Assembly: GCA_037176845.1 (NCBI GenBank)
Contig: JAYKXP010000010.1
Coordinates: 248,001 to 312,000 of the forward strand
Reading direction: 5' to 3'
Length of the DNA: 64,000 nt
DNA from: Paramarasmius palmivorus
Taxonomy: Eukaryota > Basidiomycota > Agaricomycetes > Agaricales > Marasmiaceae
Of this stretch, positions 6,519-59,167 are shown one piece after another; positions within the stretch are counted from its first letter, which is position 1; every line of letters starts with the position of its first letter. The notes beneath the pieces are model-generated. The model was not told where the DNA came from. It saw only the letters and a list, made by a program, of their open reading frames with translations, and searched no databases. The position numbers and the translations under genes are program-made.

Positions 6519-6600
6519 GGCCGCCTGGCGAAATGGCATCGCGTCTGACTACGATGAAAGTTTGATCAGGAGATTGCAGGTTCGACCCCTGCGGTGGTCA
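6519..6600 (+). tRNA. tRNA-Arg(ACG) with a short intron
   Basis: The sequence folds as a complete tRNA. The acceptor pairs GGCCGCC (6519-6525) with GGTGGTC (6593-6599) using two G-T pairs. The anticodon stem pairs TCTGA with TCAGG around the loop CTACGA...A, giving anticodon ACG. The T arm is GCAGG TTCGACC CCTGC. About 10 nt (TGAAAGTTTG) after position 37 is a canonical tRNA intron. It decodes the CGN arginine box, with the wobble A normally edited to inosine. It lies 116 bp upstream of a tRNA-Pro gene on the same strand. Confidence 0.85.
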
Positions 6601-6716: not shown

Positions 6717-6801
6717 GGCCTGATGGTCTAGTAGTATGATTCCTTGTTAGGGTATCAAAGTCCAATCGAGGAGGTCCCGGGTTCAATTCCCGGTCAGGCC
6801 C
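6717..6801 (+). tRNA. tRNA-Pro(AGG) with a 13-nt intron
   Basis: The acceptor stem GGCCTGA (6717-6723) pairs perfectly with TCAGGCC (6794-6800). The anticodon stem is CCTTG/CGAGG and the loop TTAGGG...T carries anticodon AGG. An intron of about 13 nt (TATCAAAGTCCAA) sits one base 3' of the anticodon. The B box GGTTCAATTCC is intact. This tRNA decodes CCN proline codons. It is separate from the neighbouring tRNA-Arg gene, and both are probably transcribed by pol III from their own internal promoters. Confidence 0.9.
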
Positions 6802-14191: not shown

Positions 14192-14560
14192 CAGGTTCAA
14201 ATTGTGTGCAGTGTAGTTTCCCAGCCGGTCTATGTATTATTCATCCTCCTGTCGTTCACGCCTTCGGTTAACTCGGAAGTAAAACGACCTATCCTGTTCG
14301 CCTCCGATCCCTGTGTTTTGCTCTCCTTCCACGTTAACTTTCGGGGGCGCGACGAGAATCGCCTAAACAGGCAACACCGGTTATTAGACTCTCTGGAGTG
14401 ACAGCACAAGAGACAAACCTTATTTCGCGTAGCTCGACGGCTCGTAGCCACCGACAGATGCCCTAGACTTTGAAACCGTGAGTATTCATGCAACACAAAG
14501 TAGAAGCGGGGGAAACAGTGCTTCTGAGAGCGAAAATTATGGTAAACCAAACCAAACCGT
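14192..14560. other. intergenic; start of a duplicated block
   Basis: There is no gene here. From about 14,340 the sequence resembles segments near 40,510 and 57,270, starting around the shared CACCGGTTATTAG / CTTTGAAACCGT pattern. It is therefore the downstream flank of the duplicated unknown gene rather than unique sequence. Confidence 0.5.
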
Positions 14561-15319
14561 TCACTGGACAAGCGAGTTGTTGAGCATCATTTCGAGCATA
14601 AATGGAGGTGTAACCCGGCGTGCACGCTTGATGGATTTCATGTCTTTAGAAGCGGTCGAGACCTTGATGTTTTCCTTGTTTCGTCGGGTTGTGCGAGGTG
14701 GAGTAGCGGTGGTTGCTGACCAAAGTCTGGAAATAGGGGCCTTCTTGATGGGTGTCGCGGGAGAGATAGTCGAGTTGCCAATCCATTTGTGAGGTGCCGA
14801 AGCGGTAGTGGTGATCTTATTCTTGACGGGAGTAGCAGGAGATACAGTCGAGTTGCCGAACCATTGTATAGGGGCCGACGCCGATGTCGAAGGCTTCAGT
14901 TGCTCGAATTCCTGTTCAGAAGAGAAGCTATCAAGGTAAGCATCAATAATATCATCCACATCCCCATCCTCGATCTCATCCTCATCCACTTCCTCAGCTT
15001 CACCTTCCTCGACTGACCCCTTTTTGACAAAGTCAGCAGATTCAAGTGGAAGCTTACTATTGATGAAGGCCAATGCGTCGACCTCGCGTCCAGTGAGTGC
15101 AGGGCGCAAGATATTGTAGAAGACGTCGCCAGCGGCCTTGAATGCGATCTGTTCAACGAAATCGAGCTTGGGGGGCTGTGAGACACTCGAGGTTAGCTCC
15201 GAGACATTGAGGAGTAAATGACGGGAGACATACCAAGAAGACATCGACACAGGCAGGAGAAGCATAGCAGATTGCATAGTAAAGTTCACGTCTGGCAAGC
15301 AGAGATGATGAGGGTTCAC
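14561..15319 (-). pseudogene. unknown duplicated gene, copy 1, probable frameshift near start
   Basis: This is a close relative of the gene at 57,490-58,258. The conserved body begins PPKLDFVEQIAFKAAGDVFY, then an acidic stretch (EEGEAEEVDEDEIED), then a duplicated motif (WFGNSTVSPATP / WIGNSTISPATP), and a basic C-terminus with TPPRTTRRNKENI and KRARRVTPP. No known domain is recognised; the tail looks nuclear and disordered. Compared with copy 2, this copy lacks 10 nt in the first exon (near 15,263), which shifts the frame before the 58-nt intron. If that intron is spliced, the frame breaks. If it is retained, the frame reads through (252 residues). It is therefore either a decayed copy or one that now depends on intron retention. 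Confidence 0.55.
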
Positions 15320-16973
15320 AAAAAAGATTGCGAATAGGGTCTAAAATGGAGAGGCGATGAATTTATAGTCCCTTTGGTGTCCCACGCTATGGTCAGGTCA
15401 GGCTTTGGAATGTAGAGGCATCCATAAATTGAAGCTTGTCCTAGTTCCAGTATATCAGTTACATCGTTATAGAACGTCGCGTTAACGTTGGGGCCATGTC
15501 TGATCCTGCATGAAGACAAAGGTCGTGGTTCAAAGCGTATAACGGAAAACCATGGACAAGAGCATTCAGTCGTCGATATACCTTCCTAGAGTTGATTGTC
15601 CTTTACCTAGCAATCGCAAGTATTCAGCCATGAGTAAGATTGCATAACGATTGTACGCACCGTCTGGCTCAAACTTCAACAGCGTCGTCTTGAACAGCCC
15701 AAACCCTTCCCAGGGCGTCAATGGAACAGAAGATTCGCTATCACGGTGTCAATTTTTCTGGATGTTCAATTCTTCGAGTCCGCAGAGGGTGTTGCGAGGT
15801 CCCCTATGATTCGTGAGAGTAGGGCGAGAGAGAAATAGATTGACCCCGGGTACATAACGTAGTGATACGAAACACTGTCAAAATGCACGTTTTGCTTTCA
15901 CTTTCACTTCACGCAATAATAGGGTGGGTTTGGTGAGTTGTGGGCAGGGAATCGTTCTTACTTACTCCTGATTTCTCCGGCAACTAGATTCTCGGAAGAA
16001 ACACTATCGCTCATTCATGTCAAAGCTCAAATCAAAACTACACTCCACGCCCTCGGCGCGTTTCCACTGGCACGGACCATAGGAACCTAAAGACTGCTAC
16101 CAGATGGATTTGAGGATGGATGTATGTTAGTGTGATATCGTTCATCATCCAGTCCACAGACTATCCTGCTAGTCCAAGGTTCTAGCTCTCTCCAGTCCAG
16201 AACCGTGACCCACTTTCAACCAAACACTTATAGCAGCGCTAGGAAGTCGAGCTTGGCGAGTGTTCATATCCTTGGGCACGCCGCGGCGATTCGAAACACC
16301 AAACAAGACTCAGTTGACACTAGGATCCCTTTAGAGCTCTCACCTTACGCTCGGCCTTCAGGACAGTTTCTAGTTTACCGTGCATAACTCAAGATCGCAC
16401 CAGGACTTGGATGGTACTGTGCAATGATCAGTACCCTACGACCAGTATAGGCGACTGCTAAGGTTTTGGCTGCTCAAGTCGAGAATATTCTAATCTATAC
16501 TTTTTTGGATCGCGGAAGAGGGTGGAATGGGTCTTTGACTGGAAATGGTTCGTATCAAGATTCAATCACTCGAGACCTTGGAGACACCCATTCCATCTGT
16601 GTTCTTGATCACAGTCACCGTGATATCTGTTCACCAATTTGACCGATCTCAGTTCCAACTTTTGTGGGGCTGTTTCCAATTGACTTTCCACTCTCGCATA
16701 TGCATGCTCTGACTGCCGGGGCCGGCTAGCTTGTATCATACATCATGTTCTCAAGTTTTCTTCTTGATTTCTGCGTCCCTGCGTTAGAATCGCTGTTTTG
16801 ACCTCCAAATCCTCATTCTTTGATGCTGTCAGTGAGTCATGCTGTTCATACAAATGATAGGTACCTGACCTCGATCTCATTCCTGTGGGTTTAAGTATCA
16901 TTGTGCCAATGTCTTTTTCTCTCCTGCTTTTCCTTTCCCCAAGATGCCAATGGGGGGCAGGCGTTAAGTACAA
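15320..16973. other. duplicated non-coding block and left flank of the giant transposon
   Basis: Up to about 15,720 this is the upstream region of unknown-gene copy 1, matching 58,260-58,560 and, in part, 45,126-45,250. A possible stray exon reads PLTPWEGFGLFKTTLLKFEP on the minus strand near 15,665-15,740, with no partner exons found. From about 16,190 to 16,540 a segment is repeated at 44,740-45,120. The rest, up to the transposon end at 16,974, shows nothing recognisable. Confidence 0.45.
16190..16540. repeat. segmental duplicate, partner at 44,740-45,120
   Basis: About 350 bp here matches 44,740-45,120 in the same orientation. The other copy has about 35 extra bases in the middle (around 44,966-45,003). 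Most single-base differences I can see are C/T or G/A. No coding capacity is evident in either copy. Confidence 0.7.
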
Positions 16974-17892
16974 TGACCGCTAGGACATTCGCGCGGAACA
17001 TTTCTCCGGGTCGCGCCGGTCCATTTTTGTATTCGAGCCCGTCAAACGATCCAAAATAGAAGTTCTTACTAAATAGCACGTGCCCCAAAACCTTGACACG
17101 AGTTTCATAGTTTACCGCTGGTTTATCGAGTTTACCCAGTAGTGTCTCTGCACTACCCAGCTATTATCTCCCGCGAGTAGTTTCTCTACACCACTCACCT
17201 CTCCTCCTGTCACACAGCCGTCACATATCAAGCCAGAAGCGCTACAACACTACTCGGCATCTATCGACTTGGCCGTTCATTACTGTGTCAGCGGAGCGGT
17301 GTTTTGGATTGCAAGAGGGTTCTGGAGGTGGTCGGGGAGCTGAAAAAGTGTTGGGGGGGTATTTTAAAGAGAGAGGAAGGATGCTAGGGGTCAAGTACGC
17401 TGGGGGCAAATGTGAGTAGTTTTTTGACACTATTCAAATCACAACGCTAAGGGCCGTTCTCAATAGTGCTCGTGCACTGTTCGGATTTCCGCACTCGGCG
17501 AGTGGTTTATGTGCACTACTGGACCCTGCAACCGATTTCAGTAGTGTCCAGGCACCACTCGAATTCCATCAAGATCTCAATAGTGCTCATGCACTACTCG
17601 TATTTGCAGCTCCGGTGAGTGGTTTTTGTACACTACTCAAATCAACGACTGATTTCAGTAGTGTCTCGGCACTACTCGTCTTCCCTCAAGATCTCAATGG
17701 TGCTCATGCACTACTCGGATTTGCGGCTTCGGTGAGTGGTTTTCGTACACTACTCAAACCGGCGACTGACATCAGTAGTGTCCTGGCACTACTCGTATTC
17801 CATCAATTTTTCGCTGGTGCCCATGCACTACTCGATATCCGGCCTTGGTGAGTAATTTTGTTACACTACTGAAGCCTGGATCTAACGCTAGT
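16974..17892 (+). repeat. left terminal inverted repeat (about 919 bp)
   Basis: It matches 37,651-38,569 in reverse complement over its whole length, including a run of seven G against seven C and the block around 17,180-17,450. The inner third is made of alternating AGTAGTG and CACTACT units. Short open frames inside it encode only this repeat and are not genes. Confidence 0.9.
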
Positions 17893-22481: not shown

Positions 22482-25400
22482 TCAACCATCAACCTCAACA
22501 TACTTCGACGTGCTCTTGGGTTGTACAGTGACCAAGGTACGACCATCTTCCGATTCAACAGGCTGAGGGGTCCTATTGGCCTGAGCGACAGACAATTTCT
22601 TCATTATCCTGGACGCCTGCTTCTTCAACCGGTCTTCCTCAGTCACTTTCACGTACTGCCACTGACCCAATACGTTCTTCAGCTCGTAGTCGAACATCTC
22701 CAGAATGTCAAGGTGACTCTCCTGCTCATACGCCTGGATCAGGAATTGACGTGTCCGCGTGGTAGGCTTTCCACGCTTGAAGCCTTCGGAGATATCCAGA
22801 ACTGGGGAGTAAATCTGCAGGATTTTCCACAAGTAAAATCCTTTAATGGCATTGATCATCGAGCACCCGCAATGGAAGAACCCGGACAGCAACTCGCCAC
22901 GAGACACCTTTCGAGTCGGGATCCCTGTAATACCATGGATTTGCAAATGGACCTCGTCCTCTTGTTCGCGTAACCTCAGGATCTCTGCTTTCTTCTTGGG
23001 ATCGCGGACGCGCTCAAGCAGCTTCTCCAAGTCCTGTAGTTCCTCCTCGCTTGGTAAGCTGGTTTCGTCGGTATCGGTATACGCCGATTTAAATAACTTT
23101 TGCACCCATAGTGGAATCCGTTCTGCCTCGTCCGTCTTATCTCCGCTCTTGTCGTTGAAGTGGTGGGTTATACACCGTACCATCTTCTCGCGAGTGGTCA
23201 GGATCATCAACGTCAACTCTGGGCATATCTTACCGCACTCCACAAGGTTTTGGGCATTGGCACGGGCCCATTTGCGAAGAGGATAGGGGATGTATTGCGC
23301 GATAGGGTTGTTAGCGTTGGGGAGGAACTTGGTGTGGATTACTCTGTGCAGAGCGTCTGCAGGGTATTTTGTAAGCACATATCGCTCTCCACTAATTCAA
23401 AGATTGCTTACCGCGCATCCTGGCATTCCAGGCTTCCAGTGCTAGAAGACAGATCAATAACAAGAATATCTTTTTGGAACCTCGACACTCACATTCATTA
23501 TCCCGTTGTTTATACTTTCTATCTTCCACAGTCTCGACTTGCGGTGCAAACTCATCATCATCATGGTCTCCTTGCGCGTCAAGGAACGCCTCTTCCAGTG
23601 CTCTATTTCGACGCTGCTTCCCTTCAAGGCAAAATCCATTAGTTACTATTCAACGCGTAGCAGAAATGTCAGCACCAACCTTTGCCACTTCTCTTCTCTT
23701 TTCCGTTCGGCAGTCCCTCCTCCACCCCCTCTCACGCACACCAACGGCTGAACATAGCGGCCGAATCGAGGTTGATGTCAGCGCTTGACATCTCCGTGGT
23801 GTTCTCAGGGACTACCTGCGTGTTCAAGCTAGCCTCAGAGGTCGCCCCAAGCTTCAAGTCCGGCTGTGAAACCTGCGGCAGTTCTTGTTTGGACTGCCCT
23901 TGCGCATGTGAGGTAGTCTCAGAGGTCTCCGAGGTCTCCCAGATATTCATCTCCGACTTTGAGTCCTGAAGCTGTTCCGTTTTGGGATATTCGGCGTGAT
24001 GTATGTTTCCGCTGAACGACTCATATCCCGATGGGAAATAAACGTCTCCGACCAAGATGCCTGGAACCGGCATCATGAACTGACTCCCAGCGTCGTGGTT
24101 GCCCGAAGAATTCGTCATGAACTCTTGTGGGTTATCCCACCAGATCATCTCTGTAGACATGGCATTAGTCCCATGCGTAGACTGAGAGTCTCCGGCGGAA
24201 GGTCCAAGACCACTCATTGGGATGCCGCCAGTGTCCTCTTGTCCTCGATAGCCCTGTGGTAAGTCCGAGTGCTGCATATTGAACGTGTTGTGCTGAACAT
24301 TGTCAACAGTCTCCATTTGACCTGGTATAGACACTGGCGGAACGTTCAAGTTGCCAGGATGCGATCCCTGGGCAATCGGTACAGTGTCAGACAGCCTGCC
24401 GGCATTCCCTTGGCCCGAGATCACCAAGTCAAAACTACACTGCACGGAATGGTTCTCGACCACTTGAGGAGGCTCTGGCGCCGTCTGAGCAGACCTGGCT
24501 ACAGCGGCAGGATCCTCCAGTGAAGTTCCTAGAGTTCCATCTCCACTGTTCGTCTCGTCAACACCCATCGCTTGGGTTGGATCGTCTGGAGTGTTCGGGG
24601 AATCTGCACTGGAGTGGCTATTGTCCACTTGAGGAGGTCCAGGCATCTGAGTAGACCCAGCTGCAGTGGCAGGATTCTCTACGGGTAGCACGGCGACATT
24701 CTCGACTTGCGATTGCAGCTGAGTTGTCCTCTCTCGAGCATCCACCTCATCGACACCTCTCTCATCGACACCTCTCCCATCGACACCCTTCTCGTCGTTC
24801 TCATCGACACCCTTCTCATCAATACCCCTCTCATCAACACCTGTCTCCTGAGTTGAAATCTCCAATGTGCGCTGGGATCGTGCATTGGAGTGATCATCGA
24901 CAACTCCGGGCACTGACTGAGCAATTCCAGACGCCCTTTCATGATCTCCGGAGACGATATGTGACATCCTGGTTTGCCCAGAGTGCAAGCTATCGTCCTC
25001 AGAAGGCACGTTGTGAATGCCAGAGTTGTCGGTCTTCGCTTCGACCGATTGCTTGACGACTTGGTTGGGCACTAGCATTATCTGCGTCGACGTTTCCGCG
25101 ATATCGTTCTCTGAGCCCCGAGAAGGAATTATGTGCAGGGCTTCCAGCTGCTCGTTGAGCGCTGGACCAGTCTTGATGGTGTTTCGCGTTGCTTGCGAGG
25201 GTAGTCGGCACTGCTGTGTTGGATTTACCGCCTTCGATGCACCTTCAGCTGGCTTTTTGGCTCGCACTGCTCGTTTTACTGGAGCAGGTGCATCACTCTG
25301 ACCAACCAGGACCTCACGTTGTTGTTGAACCCTGGTTGAGCGGCGTGTACCTGCCCTCAGCTGTGGTGTTTCTGTGAATGTGTCAGCGTTCACGGCGTAT

Positions 25401-25720
25401 TCGATGTTATCAGAGTACTCACCCGTCGCCGTTCCTTTCGCTTTTTTCCTACTTGGCCCTGAAACAGTGTTTTCCCCTGGAACATCATCATCTGTTTCTT
25501 TGGCGGCCTTCCTCTTCTTACCATCCGGTACGGTATTCGTTACGGCAGCACCGTTATTAGCTTCTGTGATGCAACGTTCAACCTTTGGAATTAAAATGAG
25601 GTACGATATACGTACCATCGCCGTCGTCGTCTGGGAGTTCTGACAACTCAGATTCGGAAGCATCCAGATCAACGAACCCATCAGGTACTTTCTTTTTAGA
25701 GGGTTTCTGCACGGTTACGT

Positions 25721-26067
25721 TGTTATGCTGGGCCTGGATTGGAGTGCTACATTGGTATAGATAGGATTGATAGGATTATAGGAATAGGGAATATTAGCAC
25801 GTCCAGGTCTCAGTGTTGCACAATAATCATGATAGCTATATACCGCCAAATAGTATGACTTAAGTGTCATCGGCTTCCCATATGTTGGTGTATCCCTTAG
25901 GTGGGGTCGCATATGCAATGTGTATATAGTGAGGCATGCTCTGTTGTGTAGACAAGGCACTATAGCTCAGTGGTTAGAGCACCTAACATGCAATCAGGAG
26001 GTCTGGGGTTCGACTCCCCATGGCGCCACTCTTGTTTCAACTTGGGATACAGTTAGCAGACTCTTTA
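25721..26067 (+). repeat. 5' LTR of the TRIM element
   Basis: This 347-bp repeat appears the same as 26,190-26,536. It contains a tRNA-like sequence at 25,956-26,028, near its 3' end. Confidence 0.88.
25956..26028 (+). tRNA. tRNA-like sequence in 5' LTR (probable pseudo-tRNA)
   Basis: It folds as a full cloverleaf: D stem GCTC/GAGC, T stem TGGGG/CCCCA, acceptor GGCACTA with TGGCGCC, anticodon stem CCTAA/TCAGG. Both pol III boxes are intact (TAGCTCAGTGG and GGTTCGACTCC). There are A-C mismatches at pairs 4-69 and 30-40, and a T-G pair at 6-67, all explained by G-to-A or C-to-T changes. The loop CATGCAA puts A instead of the universal U at position 33, and positions 34-36 would read TGC (Ala). 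It is therefore probably a decayed tRNA kept as promoter or structure, not a working adaptor. Confidence 0.7.
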
Positions 26068-26189
26068 TCTGGAGCCCACCGCGAGGGAAAAAGTCATTTC
26101 TATGGCTTGCTAACTCGTGTAAAAAAGTGATAATATGCTGCTGTTGAACAAGTTGACCAGGAGGTCAACATCTCTCAGTTTGGGGGAGA

Positions 26190-26536
26190 TGTTATGCTGG
26201 GCCTGGATTGGAGTGCTACATTGGTATAGATAGGATTGATAGGATTATAGGAATAGGGAATATTAGCACGTCCAGGTCTCAGTGTTGCACAATAATCATG
26301 ATAGCTATATACCGCCAAATAGTATGACTTAAGTGTCATCGGCTTCCCATATGTTGGTGTATCCCTTAGGTGGGGTCGCATATGCAATGTGTATATAGTG
26401 AGGCATGCTCTGTTGTGTAGACAAGGCACTATAGCTCAGTGGTTAGAGCACCTAACATGCAATCAGGAGGTCTGGGGTTCGACTCCCCATGGCGCCACTC
26501 TTGTTTCAACTTGGGATACAGTTAGCAGACTCTTTA
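26190..26536 (+). repeat. 3' LTR of the TRIM element
   Basis: It appears identical to 25,721-26,067, offset by 469 bp. It is bounded on the right by the target duplication ACGT. Confidence 0.88.
26425..26497 (+). tRNA. tRNA-like sequence in 3' LTR (probable pseudo-tRNA)
   Basis: This is the second copy of the tRNA-like sequence, with no base difference seen from 25,956-26,028. It carries the same A and B boxes and the same anticodon-loop anomaly. Transcription from here would run out into the interrupted passenger gene, antisense to it. Confidence 0.7.
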
Positions 26537-27433
26537 ACGTCGTCTTGAGGAGCTGGAGTCTCTTCAACAGCTATGTCTGGAGAGTGCACGGTGAGTTTCA
26601 TGCTACGTCAGAAAACTGAATACTAACACTTGTTGTTTTCCACGTCCATTAGCTCTGCCTTCTTCATCTTTTCCTCCAGTTCAGCGCTCTTGAGCTCCTC
26701 GAGTGCTTCCGCATACCGGTGCCGAAGATCTTCTCTCGCTTGCTCTTCATCTGGCGTACGCTTTTTTTTTTTGTCGGACTTCTTCAACTGGGTGTTGAGC
26801 GAGCTAGTCGTGCCTCGCATCTTGTTCGCCTTCTTACGGGCCGTGTTCCATGCTTCGTATACTCGTGCAAGAACTAATTGGTGAGCTTCACTGAACTACC
26901 GAAAAAAAAAAAAATACTAACCTTCTTTATATTCCTGCGCAGAACGGTCTAAACAGGAGAGGTATGTAAGTACAATTGAATAGATAATTTTTTGTAGCTC
27001 ACATCGGTTTCTGTCAGTTGTCGGAGGGGACTCAGACGTTGGGGCCGACATCGAGGATAGGTGATAAGAGTGATGCCCCGACCTTGGGCTATGGTCTACC
27101 TCCTTGGTTCCGGAACCCGCGTGGTGCCTATTTGATACTGAAGCAACATACTGAAGCAACAACAACCTCGTATTGAAGGACTTGTCTCAACATAAAAATA
27201 CACACCTAGCCGTCATTTTCGTTTCCGTTACTTATTTTATTTTTTTATCTCAAATTTATTGGTGACGAACCCTTCAAATTGGTGACGAACCTTCGGCCCA
27301 GTAGAATAAACAAAGGCACATGATCATTGCGACCAAGGTCTCTGGACTGAAGGACTTGAGTCTCAGTGTTCCTCTTGCCCCCTTGTTGAATCCTACCTCT
27401 GCCTCCTGTTTACCCGCCTCTTACAGTCCGACT

Positions 27434-32771: not shown

Positions 32772-35700
32772 ATGCTCCCCCCACTTCCAGATACCAACAG
32801 TCCACCCAGGCGACGAGGATTACCAGTTCTACGGTCTGCAGAACCAAAAACACCCTTCAACTATCCTGGACATCATTTACGGGATGAGGAGAGACGAAGA
32901 AGTCCAAAGAAGAGAGTTACGACACATACACGGAATGGAGCAGAACACGGCAGGGCAAGAAAACGCCAGAAGAGCTCCAGAGTGTATCATGCAGTAGTCG
33001 AGAGAGACGAGGATCCTGTGCCAATAAGCTACGAGGATACGTCTAATCATTTCACTGGTGACGCGGAAGCACCACCAATCGGATTGGAACTCGACGCAGA
33101 CTTCGAATCCTACATCAGACTAGTCGAGTCACGATGTGTAGGATTCATCAGGATAAGCCAAGCGGTGTATGTGGTACAGGGATGGAATGTAAAGGAACGG
33201 ATGGCCACGGTGCGTGTTGCTGTATGATGAATACGATAGAGGTGTTGAAATAGACACAGGACCATTGGTACCATATGCAGGTCCAACATACTGGGGACGA
33301 CATTAGCTTGGCTTGTATGTGTCCTCAGGGAGGCTTTACTGATAGGCCCTGTGTGCATACGCAGTTCTATATGGAATTTAGGGACGAAAGGTTTCGTGAG
33401 GACGAGGATCTACCATTCAGGGGTGAGGATTGAACACTTTGCGAAGGACTGCTACTGACAGCGATGTAAGAGGGTAAAACAGTTGTGTTTTGGCGGGAGC
33501 GAATTGGATTTGAGGAGGAGTTGTGGTTAACACGATTCTCTGTTCGCGGCCATTCAGAAGCATTATCGAGTCGAGCAGTAGTAACTTACGAAGGGCTGGA
33601 TGACGGCTTTGGCAGCTGGCATTGTTCAAAGGACAAGAATACCCCATGCTCCCATATCCCGACCGCCCGCAAGTTCTTCAGCCAAATCTTTGGCCAGGAA
33701 CACGAAATGAACGATAGAAGCTCAGCCTCTAATCCTGACAACAGTCAAGTAGATGAAGAGGATTACGTCGGTAGGTGTTTGTTGTCATTGTCCTAGGCTG
33801 TAAACCTGATGATTTATGTCAGTGGATGATGGCGCAGGGCTAGAGCCAGCAATATCTCACCTGCCAATCATGCCTCCGCCGTGGGCAATCTTGTCCACAG
33901 ACATTGCTCACTATACCCGGGTACCTGTCGAGATGAACTACCCTGTGGTAATCACGATAGCAGGTCGAATATGTGGAAGCCTGTGCCAACACGAAGCTGT
34001 ATACGATCCCACACGCGCTGTGACAGTCAAGGAGTGCACCATATACACTCTAACCGGCACCAGATCTACGACGATCGAACTCCAACAATGTGCAAACTGC
34101 CCTTCACGGCGACATTGCTATATTGGTCCCGATACCAGAGATCTTGGACTCTTCAACTTCAACAATTCGGTGTTGTTTACGCACGAACTTCTTGACGAGT
34201 ACACGAGTCGATACACAAGTAGTGTTACCCCGTTTTCAGCTTTCATCCAAGCGATGGGTAGGGTGTATGAATGTCGTGGGAACCGCTTTGTGAAGGAGGA
34301 TCTGTTCCGTTCTGTCTGGTTTGCGTATGCGAGCGTGCAAGACCTGCGTGGGGATATGTTCTGTAACCGATGTGGTAGTGCACCGGAGAACGTGATATGG
34401 GATGGAATGACGCTTTCCTTCAGCAAGAAACATCTCAACAACTCGATGAAGCCACCGACAGTCGAGACGGAGGACTCTACAATCAGACTTCGGAAGTACC
34501 GCAAGGAAATCGCGTGGATGCCCATGAAGTCAAAGGAACTGGCATCGTTTAGAAGGCGGATGCTGGCTTGGCTTCGCAAGGGGAAGAAGGCTCAAGCACG
34601 GCAGGATGAAGACGAAAGCGAAGAGGAACATCCCATAGGACCAACAGGTAACTATTATGGAGAACTGCTGGCAATCGCAGCAACTTTCACGAAAGTGGCA
34701 CCGAGCTTGGGGACAATGTTCCTTCGAGTTTTTGGCACTGAATTGAGCACCACTGGTACTGTAGACAAATCGTTGCGGAAGTGGTATTCCATGTTCTTTG
34801 AACAGGTGTGTCGCAATACAATAGAGTCGTATGGTGCTGATATCGGTTCCGGGTGTGTAGCTGGTGGCAGAAGAGCCTGCGGTACAGATGGTCAATGAAG
34901 CAGCACTAGACAGCCTGTATGCCTTCATACAAGACCCATCACGTAGGACTGCATCCGCATTGATGGATATTCCGGCACTGATGAGGATTGTGGAGAAGGA
35001 GCTGCGAAGTGGTGAACGCTTTCCAAGCGACCTGCTTGACGTTTGCCAGTGGATGCACAGCCGGCTGAATGTGGTGCTATCGGAGCTGAAGAGCGGAGAC
35101 CTTCCGATGCTTCCGCTGCTTCAGCGTCACCAGAGGGATGTGGACGAGTGGAAAATGGTGAGTACTGCAAGAAACTAAGCATTGCACCGTTGACTTTGCG
35201 TAGACAGGCACCTGCTATGGCATGCAACAGATACGGGCCAGGCCTTCATATCCGTCACTCAAAGGAGACGGTGCACCAGACAAGGGAGACCAGCGTGGCG
35301 ATAAATGTTCCAAATATTATTCAACGTATGGGGAGCGGCGGTTGACAGGAGGAATCATGTGCGCCTGGTGCACACATAGCATTTGCTATGGATTCCATTG
35401 CATACCCAAGGGAGAGGGCAGAAACGACGTGTTTTCTGCTATGGTAACAAGATGGCCACAAGCTCCGAAGCGGGTGATATACGACTTCGCTTGTGCTCTG
35501 GGCCCATATTGTATGACGAGAGAGCCCGAGTTTTTTGGGAGAACGCAATTCCTCGTAGATGGCTTTCATGCCAAAGGGCACTCCAAATGCTCTACGGCGT
35601 CGTTTCTTTCCACGTACACCGAGGTCAACGCCAATCTCTCTCGGCTGAACTCCAGCGCAGCGGAATGTGGGAATAGCGGGTTGGGAAGAATTCGAAAGGC

Positions 35701-35794
35701 GGTCAGCTATATGAGGCAGAACCGCGCAATACTGTACACGAAGGTGTTCTTGTCAATATGGAATAGGTTGCGCATGCGAATGCAGACGCGGTGA
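32772..35794 (+). CDS. KDZ-type transposase with cysteine clusters
   Basis: Six exons (32,772-33,209; 33,254-33,422; 33,471-33,770; 33,823-34,805; 34,861-35,157; 35,204-35,794) join in frame to 925 residues. The N-terminus is basic and disordered. A SWIM-like Cys/His cluster follows (CMCPQGGFTDRPCVH, then CSKDKNTPCSH). Further CxC clusters lie in the middle (CQHEA, CANCPSRRHC, FCNRCG). The C-terminal block has GGIMCAWCTHSICYGFH, VIYDFACALGPYC, FLVDGFHAKGHSKC and LNSSAAECGNSGLGRIRK, which I recognise as the KDZ transposase region of the type whose neighbours carry CxC5/CxC6 cysteine clusters. Likely catalytic acids are the Asp of IWDGMTLSF, the Asp of VIYDF and the Glu of SSAAEC (inferred). 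The frame is uninterrupted, so it may be active. It lies near the right end of the element. Confidence 0.85.
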
Positions 35795-37650
35795 CCGAAC
35801 AATGAAGGGGTATCCGGACGATAAACGTTGAAGGGCACAGGCCATGCGGTGGAGGATAGAGATATGGGATTGAGGTCGGAGCTGTACCGAGAATATACGA
35901 GATGCTAGCACTTGCATCGTGCATGTTGTGGGGGTGCCACTTGCTAAACACGCGTCTGGCGTACGCAAGCAGCTATAGGTATTCCCAGAATGATATCTGT
36001 CAAGGTGTGTCATTAGACGGCGACATGTATAATTCAGAAGTATCACGTACGTTAGATGGTTGCAATGAATAATGTCAACGGAGTGATACGTGACTCCGAT
36101 GCAGTGGTTTTTATTATGGAGAATAAGGACACAACGAATAGCACTTGGTACCGGAGGAATCAGAGAGTGTGGCTGATGGCGCATTGAGACTACTTACCGA
36201 GGTCAACAACAGGAGTAGTGTGTGGGCACCAGCGAAGGAAACCGATGCCCGAATATCACGGAGGTTTAGTAGCTGGAATTCGGAGCTTTAGAAACAAGGA
36301 AGGGCCTGAACACTGCCGGAATCAGGTACTGGCTCGAGTGGTGTACATAAACTACTCACCAATGCCGAAAGTCCGAACAGTGCACGAGCACCACAGAGAG
36401 CGTCCGCTTAGCTATAAGCTATCCTTAACAGCAAAGAAGGACGGTACACCAAGAACCCTTTTGCGACCGTCATAGTTCCACTCATTGTGCGAAATCTCAG
36501 AGTAGTATGAGCACTAGCAAGCACTGTAGCGAACCGAGTCGGAGTAGTGGCGAGACACTACTGAAATCAGTAATCAGTCGCTGGTTCGAGTAGTGTACAA
36601 AAACTACTCACCAATGCCGGATATCGAGTAGTGCATGGGCACCATTGAGATCTTGATGGAAGACGAATAGTGCCGAGACACTACTGAAATCAGTCGCCGG
36701 TTCGAGTAGTGTACGGAAACCACTCACCAAAGCCGCAAATCCGAGTAGTGTATAAGCACCACTGAGATCTTGATGGAATTCGAGTAGTGCCTGGACACTA
36801 CTGAAATCGGTTGCAGGGTCCAGTAGTGCACATAAACCACTCGCCGAGTGCGGAAATCCGAACAGTGCACGAGCACTATTGAGAACGGCCCTTAGCGTTG
36901 TAATTTGAGTAGTGTCAAAAAACTACTCACATTTGCCCCCAGCGTACTTGACCCCTAGCATCCTTCCTCTCTCTTTAAAATACCCCCCCAACACTTTTTC
37001 AGCTCCCCGCCTCACAACTCTCAGACCGTCTCATTCATAATCCGTAGAACTACCCATAGACACAAGGCTTGTATTCATGGTGTGAGATTGTCGAGTAGTG
37101 AAGACGAATAGTGCCCGAACACTACTAGCGTTAGATCCGGGTTTCAGTAGTGTAGCAAAACCACTCACCAATGCCGGATATCGAGTAGTGCATGGGCACC
37201 AGCGAAAAGTTGGTGGAAACCGAGTAGTGCCGAGACACTACTGAAATCAGTCGCCGGTTCGAGTAGTGTACGGAAACCACTCACCAAAGCCGCAAATCCG
37301 AGTAGTGTATAAGCACCACTGAGATCTTGATGGAATTCGAGTAGTGCCTGGACACTACTGAAATCGGTTGCAGGGTCCAGTAGTGCACACAAACCACTCG
37401 CCGAGTGCGGAAATCCGAACAGTGCACGAGCACTATTGAGAACGGCCCTTAGCGTTGTGATTTGAGTAGTGTCAAAAAACTACTCACATTGGCCCCCAGC
37501 GTATTGGACCTCTACCATCCTTCTTCCCTCTCTAAAAGAGCCCAACGTGTCCTCACAACTCTCAGACCGTCTCATTCATAATCCGTAGAACTACCCATTA
37601 TTCATGGTGCGAGATTGTGGAGTAGCGAAAACGAATAGTGCCCGAACACT
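35795..37650. repeat. right subterminal repeat arrays
   Basis: From 35,795 to about 36,190 nothing is recognised. From about 36,200 increasingly regular AGTAGTG/CACTACT units begin, first degenerate (36,200-36,480), then strong. A block of about 130 bp that also lies in the inverted repeat (38,079-38,209) is repeated at 36,880-37,009 and, more diverged, around 37,435-37,545. The right end is thus built of about three partial copies of the inner inverted repeat where the left has one. A shared insert (CTCACAACTCTCAGACCGTC) follows the block at 37,013 and 37,554. Confidence 0.75.
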
Positions 37651-38569
37651 ACTAGCGTTAGATCCAGGCTTCAGTAGTGTAACAAAACTACTCACCAAGG
37701 CCGGGTATCGAGTAGTGCATGGGCACCAGCGAAAAATTGATGGAATACGAGTAGTGCCAGGACACTACTGATGTCAGTCGCCGGTTTGAGTAGTGTACGA
37801 AAACCACTCACCGAAGCCGCAAATCCGAGTAGTGCATGAGCACCATTGAGATCTTGAGGGAAGACGAGTAGTGCCGAGACACTACTGAAATCAGTCGTTG
37901 ATTTGAGTAGTGTACAAAAACCACTCACCGGAGCTGCAAATACGAGTAGTGCATGAGCACTATTGAGATCTTGATGGACTGCGAGTGGTGCCTGGACACT
38001 ACTGAAATCGGTTGCAGGGTCCAGTAGTGCACATAAACCACTCGCCGAGTGCGGAAATCCGAACAGTGCACGAGCACTATTGAGAACGGCCCTTAGCGTT
38101 GTGATTTGAATAGTGTCAAAAAACTACTCACATTTGCCCCCAGCGTACTTGACCCCTAGCATCCTTCCTCTCTCTTTAAAATACCCCCCCAACACTTTTT
38201 CAGCTCCCCGACCACCTCCAGAACCCTCTTGCAATCCAAAACACCGCTCCGCTGACACAGTAATGAACGGCCAAGTCGATAGATGCCGAGTAGTGTTGTA
38301 GCGCTTCTGGCTTGATATGTGACGGCTGTGTGACAGGAGGAGAGGTGAGTGGTGTAGAGAAACTACTCGCGGGAGATAATAGCTGGGTAGTGCAGAGACA
38401 CTACTGGGTAAACTCGATAAACCAGCGGTAAACTATGAAACTCGTGTCAAGGTTTTGGGGCACGTGCTATTTAGTAAGAACTTCTATTTTGGATCGTTTG
38501 ACGGGCTCGAATACAAAAATGGACCGGCGCGACCCGGAGAAATGTTCCGCGCGAATGTCCTAGCGGTCA
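37651..38569 (-). repeat. right terminal inverted repeat (about 919 bp)
   Basis: This is the reverse complement of 16,974-17,892. Its outer end lies only 24 bp from the start codon of the next DUF6533 gene, so it must contain most of that gene's present promoter. Confidence 0.9.
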
Positions 38570-38593
38570 CTTTACCTAGCGGTTATCCGGCCA

Positions 38594-44243: not shown

Positions 44244-45541
44244 TGCCATTAAAACTCTTGACAAGCCGTCGCTACTATGTAACCAAGAAATTTGAGAAAA
44301 CGGTTCCGGGTCGATGACTTTAGATACTTAAGTAGCCAGATCTGCATCCAATCAGATCCAATCTACGTCACGTAGGTTCACTTACAGCTCTAGTCAATAA
44401 TTTGAAGAGCTTTCCGAAAGATAGACTATAATCTGCATTTGGTTCATGTTTCACGAAAAGAAGATGCGGCTTGTGGTGCTGGACTGATGAACTGCCTAGA
44501 AGCGCCTCGGCTAGAACCTGGACCCGGTTCGTGGACCGGCGACCCGTATTCAAGCTTTCAAGCTTTTCAAGATCGATCTCATCCACGTAACATCGACTCT
44601 GGCCAGTGTCCGTCCAGCTCAAATCCGGCCCTCTGATAACAGACATGTCAACTTGTTTGTTGGTAATCCAGCTGGTCATAGCATCGACGAGCGTTGTAGG
44701 AAAGGGAAAAAGTACGTGGTCGTTTCGATACTTCCATACACCCTAATTCACTCTCTCCAGTCCAGAACCGTGACCCGCTTTCAGCCAAACACTCATAGCA
44801 GCGCTAGGAAGTTGAGCCTGGCGAGTGTTCATATCCTTGGGCACGCCGTGGCGATTCGAAACACCAAACAAAACTCAGTTGACACCAGGATCCCTTCAGA
44901 GCTCTCACCTTACGCTTGGCCTCCAGGACAGTTTCTAGTTTACCGTTCACAACTCAAGATCACACCAGTGCGGACCACTGGAACCCTTGATACATCACCT
45001 GAATTGGATGGTACTGTGCAACGATCAGTACCCTAATACCAGTATAGGCGATTGCCAAGGTTTTGGCTGCTCAGGTCGAGAATGCTCTAATCTATACGTT
45101 TTTTTTGGATCGCGGAAGAGGGTGGAATGGGAGATTGCATAGTAAAGTTCACGTCTGTCAAGCAGAGATGATGAGGGTTTACAAAAAAGATTGCGAATAG
45201 GGTCTAAAACGGAGAGGCGATGAATTTATAGTCTCTTGCGGTGTCCCACGCCTCAATATTCAATACGCGCCACAACCATCCGCAAGCGCTCAACTGGTGG
45301 AATACAAGGGTAGACGTCCGTCCCATTGAGGCTTCAACCTGTTACTGTCGTGTCTCGATGACGGGAACGACTCGGTCGATACATGTCCCCAGAGGATGTA
45401 CTGCACTGCGCCAAGGATCGTTAGCCAGCTGTAGACTTTGAAGAACTCTTTCCCTTCATTGCCACAGTTATTGCAATTCATTACTACGGTTCGACAATAT
45501 GACGCGTATCCTCTCAGTGTACGTAGCGCATAATGGAACAT
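44244..45541. other. intergenic with two duplicated segments
   Basis: 44,740-45,120 repeats 16,190-16,540. 45,126-45,250 repeats the 5' end and promoter of the unknown duplicated gene (about 15,265-15,390). The rest shows no supported gene, and the short minus-strand frame at 44,368-44,679 has no recognisable features. Confidence 0.5.
45126..45250 (-). pseudogene. 5' fragment of the duplicated unknown gene
   Basis: It matches the start and upstream sequence of copy 1 (about 15,265-15,390), including its TAGTAAAGTTCACG variant rather than the copy 2 form. It is directly abutted by the 44,740-45,120 duplicate. Only the first coding bases remain. Confidence 0.6.
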
Positions 45542-56788: not shown

Positions 56789-57489
56789 AGTGGTTGAGAG
56801 TACAGACGCGTTCGGCATGCTCAGCACCCTTTTATCGATCGGTTCGAAGACACCGCCGCGGCCGAGTGCATCAGGAACGCATTACCATCTTACCTTATAC
56901 ATGATGAATCGGCCGTGAACAGCAAATTGCTACATGAACGTTCTGGAAAGTGATATTTTGGTATCGACAATGACAAAGGAAAAGATATATGACACAGATA
57001 CATGACGCTCGAGTGCCCGAGTCCCAACGCAATAACTTCAAGTCATCCCCGATTTCATCCCAGGTTTGTGGCATCACCGCTCGAAATAAGATTGGAGTCA
57101 TGCAGGAATCGCGTCTGGATTAGGGAAATCAGATGCGAAATGCATGACCTTAGTTCATACCTCTAAGTACCCCGAAAATTCACCACGCGTGGTATAATCC
57201 TGCGAAATGTTCTCGAGTCAGTTTACGGTCACATGTAGATTGGGATGATACTTACAGGGTTCGATGAGAACCACCTAGAACAAGAAACACCGGTTATTAG
57301 CTTGTCTCAAGGAACAATGAAGGAGACGAACCTTGCTTCATGGTAATTCACATTGACGCGTTGACGGCTGAGATCCACCAACCGATGCTCCAAGCCTCAA
57401 AAATGTAAGTAATCTACAACACATGAAGCTGGAGAAATAGAAAAAGAAACGAAAGAAACAATGCCCCGGAAGAAGTGAACCCAAACCGT
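56789..57489. other. intergenic, nothing recognised
   Basis: This contains the promoter of the aldo/keto reductase. From about 57,270 the duplicated block shared with 14,340 and 40,510 begins. Confidence 0.5.
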
Positions 57490-58258
57490 TCACTGGGGAA
57501 CCGCGTTGTTGTTGAGCATCATTTCGAGCAGAGATGGAGGTGTAACCCGGCGCGCACGCTTGACGGATTTTGCGTCTTCGGAAACGGTCAAGAGCTTGAT
57601 GTTTTCCTTGTTTCGCCGAGTCGTGCGAGGTGGAGTTGCGGTAGTTGCTGACCAAAGCCTCGGAATAGGGGCCTTCTTGACGGGAGTCGCGGGAGAGATA
57701 GTCGAGTTGCCAATCCATCGGAGGGGTGCAGAAGCGGTGGTGGTGATTCTGTTCTTGATGGGTGTAGCAGGAGATACAGTCAAGTTGCCGAACCATTCTA
57801 TAAGGGCCGACGCCGATGTCGAAGGCTTCAGTTGTTCGAATTCCTGTTCAGAAGAGAAGCTATCAAGGTAAGCATCAATAATATCATCCGTATCGTCTTC
57901 AATCTCATCCTCATCCACCACCTCAGCTTCACCTTCCTCGACTGACCCCTTTTTGACAAAGTCAGCAGATTCAAGTGGAAGCTTACTGTTGATGAAGGCC
58001 AAGGCGTCGACCTCGCGTCCAGTGAGTGCAGGGCGCAAGACATTGTAGAAGACGTCGCCAGCGGCCTTGAACGCGATCTGTTCGACGAAGTCGAGCTTGG
58101 GGGGCTATGAGACACGCGAGATTAGCTCCGAGACATCGAGGAGTAAATGACAGGGGACATACCAAGAAGACGTCGACACAGGCAGGAGAAGTAGCGGAGA
58201 TCATAGCAGATTGCATAGTAGAATTCACGTCTGGCAAGCAGAGATGATGAGGGTTCAC
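57490..58258 (-). CDS. unknown duplicated gene, copy 2 (intact)
   Basis: The start at 58,258 gives MNPHHLCLPDVNSTMQSAMI, then SATSPACVDVFL. A 58-nt intron (58,107-58,164) joins in phase 0 to PPKLDFVEQIAFKAAGDVFY. The body has an acidic stretch (EEGEAEVVDEDEIED), a predicted helix (IIDAYLDSFSSEQEFEQL) and a duplicated motif (WFGNLTVSPATP, WIGNSTISPATP). The tail is basic (TPPRTTRRNKENI, KRARRVTPP) and ends at 57,490. No known domain is recognised; composition suggests a nuclear protein of about 235 residues. Being intact, it is the reference for copy 1 and the fragments at 40,510 and 45,126. Confidence 0.65.
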
Positions 58259-59167
58259 AAAAAAGATTGCGAATAGGGTCTAAAATGGAGAGGCGAGGAA
58301 TTTATAGTCCCTTGCGGTGTCCCACGCTATGGTCAGGTCATGCTTTTTAACGCATAGAACGTCGCGTTGGTTAATCCTAAGTACGTGAAGACAGAGGTAG
58401 CGGTCCAACGCGTACAACGGAAAACTATGAACAAGAACATTCGGTCGTCGATATCCCTTCCTAGACTTGCTAGAAGCCGCAAGTATTTAGCCATGGGTAA
58501 GATTGCAGGGACCATTGATACACACCTTCTCTTCAGCAGTGTCGCTTTCAGCAGCCTAAACTCTTCACAAGCCAGCCTTGCGACAGATGAATCGCCAGCA
58601 AGGTGGGAATCTCTGTGAATGCAATTCTCCGAGTCTGCAGATATTCTCGATGATCCATGGGTGAGAGTAAAGAATTCCCTCGACCCCGGGTAACCGAGGA
58701 TTCGCTTTCACCTCCTCCATCATGATCTTTTCGCGGCACCTTCCATTGTACATGTACCCGCTCAAGCTGAGCCCTTCGACAGACTCCCGACAACTACCCG
58801 ATCCACACTTTACCCAGAATTGATCGTTTCCCTGTCCAAATAGTATCCCTCAACATTCCCGTCTTAACGCGCCCACAGATACGCCTCCCTGCCATAGCCC
58901 AGTCACTAGGAAAGCCAGATGTGTATTCTTCCTGGTTACAGCCGTCTGCTACTAACACAAAACAGTACCAATTTCTGCTCTCGCGATCATTTCGCAGGGC
59001 CGCCCATGCGTAACCCGACTGCCGGGCTCTTTGCGACTCCCGACAGTGTTGATACATCAATCATTTCGCCAGGTGATATTATGATACTCATCGAGTATTC
59101 TTGGTTTTAAGTAGCCTATGATAAGCTGCAATCGGTCTCTACATTTTTCCCGCCGTTGATACTCAAA
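58259..59167. other. upstream block of copy 2 and promoter region of DUF6533 copy F
   Basis: Up to about 58,560 this matches the upstream region of copy 1. From about 58,900 the sequence resembles 63,040-63,310, the region upstream of DUF6533 copy G, including the shared CGATCATTTCGCA and the TTTTAAGTAGCCTATGA or TTTAAGTAGCCTATGA tract. It is the duplicated promoter region of copies F and G. No gene is supported. Confidence 0.5.

Follow-up and report, generated by a model that had tools for sequence, protein, structure and literature searches.

The locus analyzed here raises the question of how a retroelement that carries no genes, and whose two long terminal repeats (LTRs) each enclose a tRNA-like sequence, is transcribed and by which machinery it is moved. 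The element lies in a 64,000-nucleotide stretch of Paramarasmius palmivorus contig JAYKXP010000010.1 (C10 hereafter), which we refer to as the window and whose positions are used throughout. A first-pass annotation, made from the sequence alone, had described it as a miniature LTR retrotransposon (TRIM). We consider it probable that the element is a recently mobile, non-autonomous TRIM of the Helenus kind, whose LTRs carry a promoter derived from a tRNA and whose movement depends on a Ty3/Gypsy element acting in trans.

Anatomy, insertion site and genomic copies

The element spans 816 bp (25721–26536) and contains two LTRs and no genes. Its 5′ LTR (25721–26067, forward strand, TGTTATGC...CTCTTTA) and 3′ LTR (26190–26536, forward strand) measure 347 bp each and show zero differences, and the target-site duplication ACGT is present on both sides (25717–25720 and 26537–26540). 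The 122-bp internal region between them (26068–26189, forward strand) opens with a TC spacer (26068–26069) that separates the 5′ LTR from an 18-nt primer-binding site, TGGAGCCCACCGCGAGGG (26070–26087, forward strand), exactly complementary to the 3′ end of host tRNA-Lys plus CCA, and closes with a polypurine tract, TTTGGGGGAGA (26179–26189, forward strand), that adjoins the 3′ LTR directly. Repeat comparison and inspection of the ends thus bear out the identical repeats, TGG-type primer site, purine tract, absence of genes and 4-bp duplication of the first-pass annotation. An LTR pair, primer-binding site, polypurine tract, target duplication, lack of genes and length below 1000 bp are together the features of a TRIM. 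Within the internal region, positions 26152–26169 hold the 7-bp arms GTTGACC and GGTCAAC of a perfect inverted repeat, separated by a 4-nt loop, a possible RNA hairpin.

The element interrupts a host gene. An open reading frame on the reverse strand (23732–25681) has a single protein match, P. palmivorus VNI00_017761, with 99.7% identity over the last 292 residues and 53–73% elsewhere. At the filled site the alignment to VNI00_017761 is split by the element; when the element and one duplication are removed, the alignment of residues 1–154 runs unbroken through the junction, and one frame spanning the empty site has no stop for 69 codons. Because the alignment is continuous only across the empty site, the element sits inside a predicted coding exon, the one upstream of this open reading frame. 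The interrupted gene reaches to about 27000, is possibly highly polymorphic given its strongly uneven identity, and contains no Pfam domain over the cut-off.

The window also holds other repeats. Two 931-bp stretches, 99.1% identical and in opposite orientation, occupy 16962–17892 and 37651–38581, and tandem copies related to them lie at 36542–38210; matches to a CxC4 cysteine cluster and a KDZ transposase at 33816–34898 and 35222–35794 on the forward strand mark a KDZ transposon. A dispersed repeat at 14549–15406 and 57478–58346 (90% identity over 872 bp, with a further part at 45132–45251) has pieces that also match a stretch near a Gypsy LTR of family A (see below) on contig C29.

The spread of the element was assessed in the host genome (68.3 Mb in 393 contigs). 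A query with the LTR returned 10 matches, namely nine near-full LTRs of 98–100% identity and one 60-nt piece, and a query with the internal region returned two copies; the family therefore comprises two full elements, the window copy and a minus-strand copy on C89, and five solo LTRs, on C158, C225, C275, C143 and C194. An exact genome-wide pattern of the purine tract followed by the LTR start likewise recovered the two full elements only. The first-pass annotation had made its reading depend on the LTR occurring elsewhere and on other copies keeping the tRNA-like part; neither objection applies, the LTR being found at seven places and the tRNA-like part in 9/9 near-full LTRs. Since the seven insertions have different flanks and duplications, the element is not a chance or assembly duplicate. 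The 60-nt piece, at C193:50101, is 90% identical to the start of the LTR and was considered as a larger relative; this was rejected and the piece taken as a truncated copy, because the similarity does not continue into the 572-bp palindromic stretch that comes next. At this locus (L076, 4102–4731) the first 60 nt of the LTR are followed immediately by the palindromic stretch.

Read from 5′ to 3′ of the element, the target-site duplications are CCGG (C158), GCGG (C225), CCGT (C143), GCGG (C194), ACGT (C10) and ACGA (C89), and one imperfect pair, CCAC/CCGC, at C275. Duplications are hence perfect over 4 bp at six of the seven insertions, all six have the form NCGN with a central CG, and no duplication among the seven extends to 5 bp. 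With a CG dinucleotide frequency of 0.053 in the window, six CG-centered duplications out of six have a chance probability of about 2e-8.

The two LTRs of the window copy, with 0/347 differences, set an upper age of about 4 million years if sites change at 1.05e-9 substitutions per site per year, the rate that PMC5689174 quotes for fungi. The solo LTR on C158 is identical to that of the window copy, and the LTR pair on C89 differs by one substitution and eight gap positions. To judge from these sequences, the element is recently mobile.

The tRNA-like sequence as a candidate promoter

The tRNA-like sequence lies at 25956–26029 in the 5′ LTR, with an A box (TAGCTCAGTGG, 25963–25973) and a B box (GGTTCGACTCC, 26007–26017), and at 26425–26498 in the 3′ LTR, with the boxes at 26432–26442 and 26476–26486, all on the forward strand. 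ARAGORN calls both instances Ala-TGC, and the Rfam tRNA model scores the sequence at 55.3 bits (gathering score 29, E 3.5e-9). Its presence in all nine near-full LTRs, dispersed through the host genome, supports the initial description of a TRIM both of whose repeats contain a tRNA-like sequence. That description had also specified a full cloverleaf with intact A and B boxes. The unconstrained minimum-energy fold does give a four-armed cloverleaf (−21.9 kcal/mol), but its acceptor stem contains a mismatch and its anticodon arm is distorted. All nine LTRs have an exact A box and eight of them an exact B box, with C275 deviating in the latter. The anticodon is TGC in six of the nine LTRs and TGT in the other three. 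We infer that the stretch would act as a promoter rather than as a working tRNA.

The source of the stretch was sought by comparison with 39 distinct tRNA predictions from the host, a set without any nuclear Thr gene, and was not found among them. The closest genuine candidate, tRNA-Ile(AAT), agrees at 59/73 positions with gaps; another of the 39 was rejected as source, being an ARAGORN artefact built from the two LTRs of the element itself. A BLAST search of the host genome with the 73-nt stretch, at E values up to 10, returned only copies of the element, although introns can break such matches. For genome annotation these calls carry a warning, in that at least eight LTRs of the element are among the 63 tRNA matches listed for the host genome. 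The window also contains two adjacent tRNA genes on the forward strand (6519–6600 and 6717–6801), the second being Asn(GTT) and the first changing isotype with ARAGORN settings (unassigned versus Lys).

That ARAGORN and Rfam call the sequence tRNA could be taken to mean that the locus simply holds a pair of ordinary tRNA genes, duplicated locally or by the assembly. This reading is refuted by the dispersed copies and the seven insertions with their duplications, and further opposed by the primer-binding site and purine tract, by the reading frame of the empty site in the host gene, and by the lack of similar sequence elsewhere in the genome in the BLAST search; its probability is close to nil.

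The arrangement of possible terminators bears on which polymerase may use the promoter. The sense strand of the element contains no TTTT, whereas the 40 nt that follow a predicted nuclear tRNA gene include one in 17 of the 19 cases sampled. Taking the missing TTTT as proof of selection was rejected, since 39% of dinucleotide shuffles of the element are also free of it. Beyond the end of the LTR, the first TTTT appears at +100 in the window copy and between +23 and +188 in the five solo LTRs; downstream of the C89 element there is none within 300 nt. RNA polymerase III could initiate at the tRNA-like sequence within the 5′ LTR. Because the sense strand lacks TTTT, it would read on past the primer-binding site and through the internal region into the 3′ LTR, and stop there or beyond. 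The resulting RNA would hold a tRNA-like stretch near both ends, serving as R region. By the established mechanism of LTR retrotransposons, an RNA extending beyond the 3′ LTR would still permit first-strand transfer.

A promoter for RNA polymerase II is also possible because a TATATA motif (25923–25928 in the 5′ LTR, 26392–26397 in the 3′ LTR, forward strand) lies 33 nt upstream of the start of the tRNA-like sequence. Under this alternative, the element and its Gypsy helper would be the same, transcription would proceed from TATATA by RNA polymerase II, and the tRNA-like part would be a passenger from a captured SINE or tRNA. It speaks for this alternative that a TATA-like match at −28 to −39 occurs in only two of the 19 tRNA genes sampled; one further sampled gene has such matches near −64. 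Set against it are the absence of TTTT after the tRNA-like part and the preservation of the A box in nine and the B box in eight of nine LTRs, conservation that weighs little in a family of few young copies. We regard transcription by RNA polymerase II as possible but less likely; the promoter structure of the LTRs suggests transcription by RNA polymerase III.

Primer site, integration footprint and the candidate helper

The primer-binding site exactly complements CCCTCGCGGTGGGCT plus CCA, the 3′-terminal sequence of host tRNA-Lys(TTT) (C45:174298–174397), and is equally exact for tRNA-Lys(CTT) on C23. A degenerate pattern of the site was found in the host genome at 39 positions without mismatch and at 89 with at most two mismatches (reversed control, 20). 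Of the 39 mismatch-free sites we read 30, two of which belong to the family of the window element and 28 to five larger LTR families (A, four; B, three; C, three; D, 15; E, three). The site continues with (G)TGGTTCTAG in families A–E and with AAAAAG in the TRIM; it is preceded by TC in families A, B, C and E, as in the TRIM, and family D differs. Contig C83 (L075) alone contains nine near-matches to the site, of which the two that are readable are 3′ ends of degenerate tRNA-Lys-like sequences not called by ARAGORN; the contig perhaps holds a cluster of tRNA-Lys pseudogenes.

Two of these families have downstream pol open reading frames. Those at L077:5105–9175 (family C) and L079:4920–9002 (family B) match the Pfam domains RT_RNaseH_2, RT_RNaseH and Integrase_H2C2; the family C pol gives no Pfam match to RVT_1 or rve even at E 5. 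Compared with solved structures, this pol is best matched by Ty3-G Gag-Pol in its reverse transcriptase/RNase H part and by PFV integrase in its integrase part, and it has 709 relatives in the protein database, some of those among the 120 listed being from Lentinula edodes and Moniliophthora perniciosa. The copies of family C (C19; L077, L084) share with the TRIM the 18-nt primer-binding site, the TC spacer, LTR ends of the form TG...TTA and 4-bp NCGN duplications. The LTR of family C (1660 bp, TGATACGCC...GGTATTA) starts right after a purine tract, TTTGGGGGGAGA, that has one more G than that of the TRIM. Unlike the TRIM, family C is coding and its LTR contains 14 TTTT runs. There is no tRNA match in the readable parts of that LTR (L045, L050), and a comparison of LTR and internal region between the TRIM and the Gypsy families reveals no similarity beyond the ends. 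At C19:75631–95172, family C is arranged as internal part, LTR, internal part and LTR, like two elements sharing one LTR.

The NCGN rule was first noticed on the TRIM and then held on Gypsy copies as a test, in a comparison that covers the TRIM, family C and a single end of family A. For family C, eight LTR copies with both ends read were taken from at least 23 whose match began at the LTR start. Seven of the eight have perfect 4-bp NCGN duplications (TCGG, GCGG, CCGG, CCGG, ACGG, CCGT and CCGC), and the eighth, on C274, has CCGG on one side, ACAT on the other and no duplication. The 3′ LTR on C19 is followed by TCGC, and the only 5′ end of family A seen is preceded by CCGG.

Because duplication length, target, primer site, spacer and a nearly identical purine tract are shared, the likely helper is the Ty3/Gypsy group that carries the tRNA-Lys primer site. 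Family C is one candidate only, since at least four families (A, B, C and E) share the primer site and spacer. What sets the element apart, and what the first-pass annotation missed, is that its 4-bp NCGN duplications and the use of a tRNA-Lys primer site indicate a helper of the Ty3/Gypsy class. In the cycle we propose, tRNA-Lys would prime the copying of the TRIM RNA by the reverse transcriptase of this helper, the Gypsy integrase would insert the product at NCGN with a 4-bp duplication, and recombination between LTRs would leave the solo LTRs.

Relation to Helenus and Cassandra

Whether elements of this kind had been described, which the first-pass annotation could not tell, can be answered in the affirmative. 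Our literature search found a single description of TRIMs with tRNA sequence in the LTR (Kojima 2024, PMC10886601), where they are named Helenus. By its definition the window element is a Helenus, on account of its architecture and of the tRNA-derived sequence in both LTRs. Fungal Helenus families include Agaricomycetes, such as Agaricus bisporus and Coprinopsis cinerea (PMC10886601), and the element shares with them a length below 1000 bp, A and B boxes in both LTRs, a primer-binding site, a polypurine tract, solo LTRs and a host in Basidiomycota, including Agaricomycetes. The polymerase III promoter function of published Helenus elements is likewise putative (PMC10886601).

Compared by description, the family is nevertheless atypical of fungal Helenus. 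The fungal families have 5-bp duplications, a Copia partner and mostly, if not always, a primer-binding site for a tRNA anticodon loop (PMC10886601), in contrast to the 4-bp duplications at 6/7 insertions (the seventh with one mismatch), the primer site common to Ty3/Gypsy families (the Gypsy side being the one compared) and the fit to the tRNA-Lys 3′ end in the window family. In these three respects it is like the animal families, which have 4-bp duplications, a primer site for the tRNA 3′ end and a Gypsy partner (PMC10886601); they belong to a different kingdom, and the likeness is one of description alone. Mobilization by Copia, as reported from other fungi, would agree with the host phylum and the kind of element, and PMC10886601 concludes that fungal Helenus depends on Copia. 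The 4-bp rather than 5-bp duplications at six of seven insertions (three of four bases agreeing at the seventh) and the tRNA-Lys 3′-end primer site common to Gypsy families make this very unlikely here, and favor the Ty3/Gypsy helper.

The plant element Cassandra, whose helper is unknown according to PMC10886601, is similarly a TRIM with polymerase III promoter sequence in its LTRs. That sequence derives from 5S rRNA in Cassandra, unlike the tRNA-derived sequence of the window LTR, and an Rfam scan of the window at gathering level gives tRNA matches only, with no 5S rRNA.

The kind of element is therefore already known, and the new point is its probable Gypsy partnership in a fungus. We give even odds to a separate fungal origin of polymerase III-promoted TRIMs, in which a tRNA-like promoter was joined to Ty3/Gypsy ends in Marasmiaceae or near that family. 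If so, a short, terminator-free polymerase III RNA would be a substrate for Gypsy particles and an NCGN-preferring integrase. Through the Gypsy partnership, fungal Helenus would also come to include Ty3/Gypsy-dependent elements, contrary to the published division between Gypsy in animals and Copia in fungi. Matching integration footprints identify the helper group here, as is not the case for Cassandra, and because this is a small, young family whose helper group can be named from primer site and footprint, the way in which TRIMs with polymerase III promoters find their helpers becomes testable.
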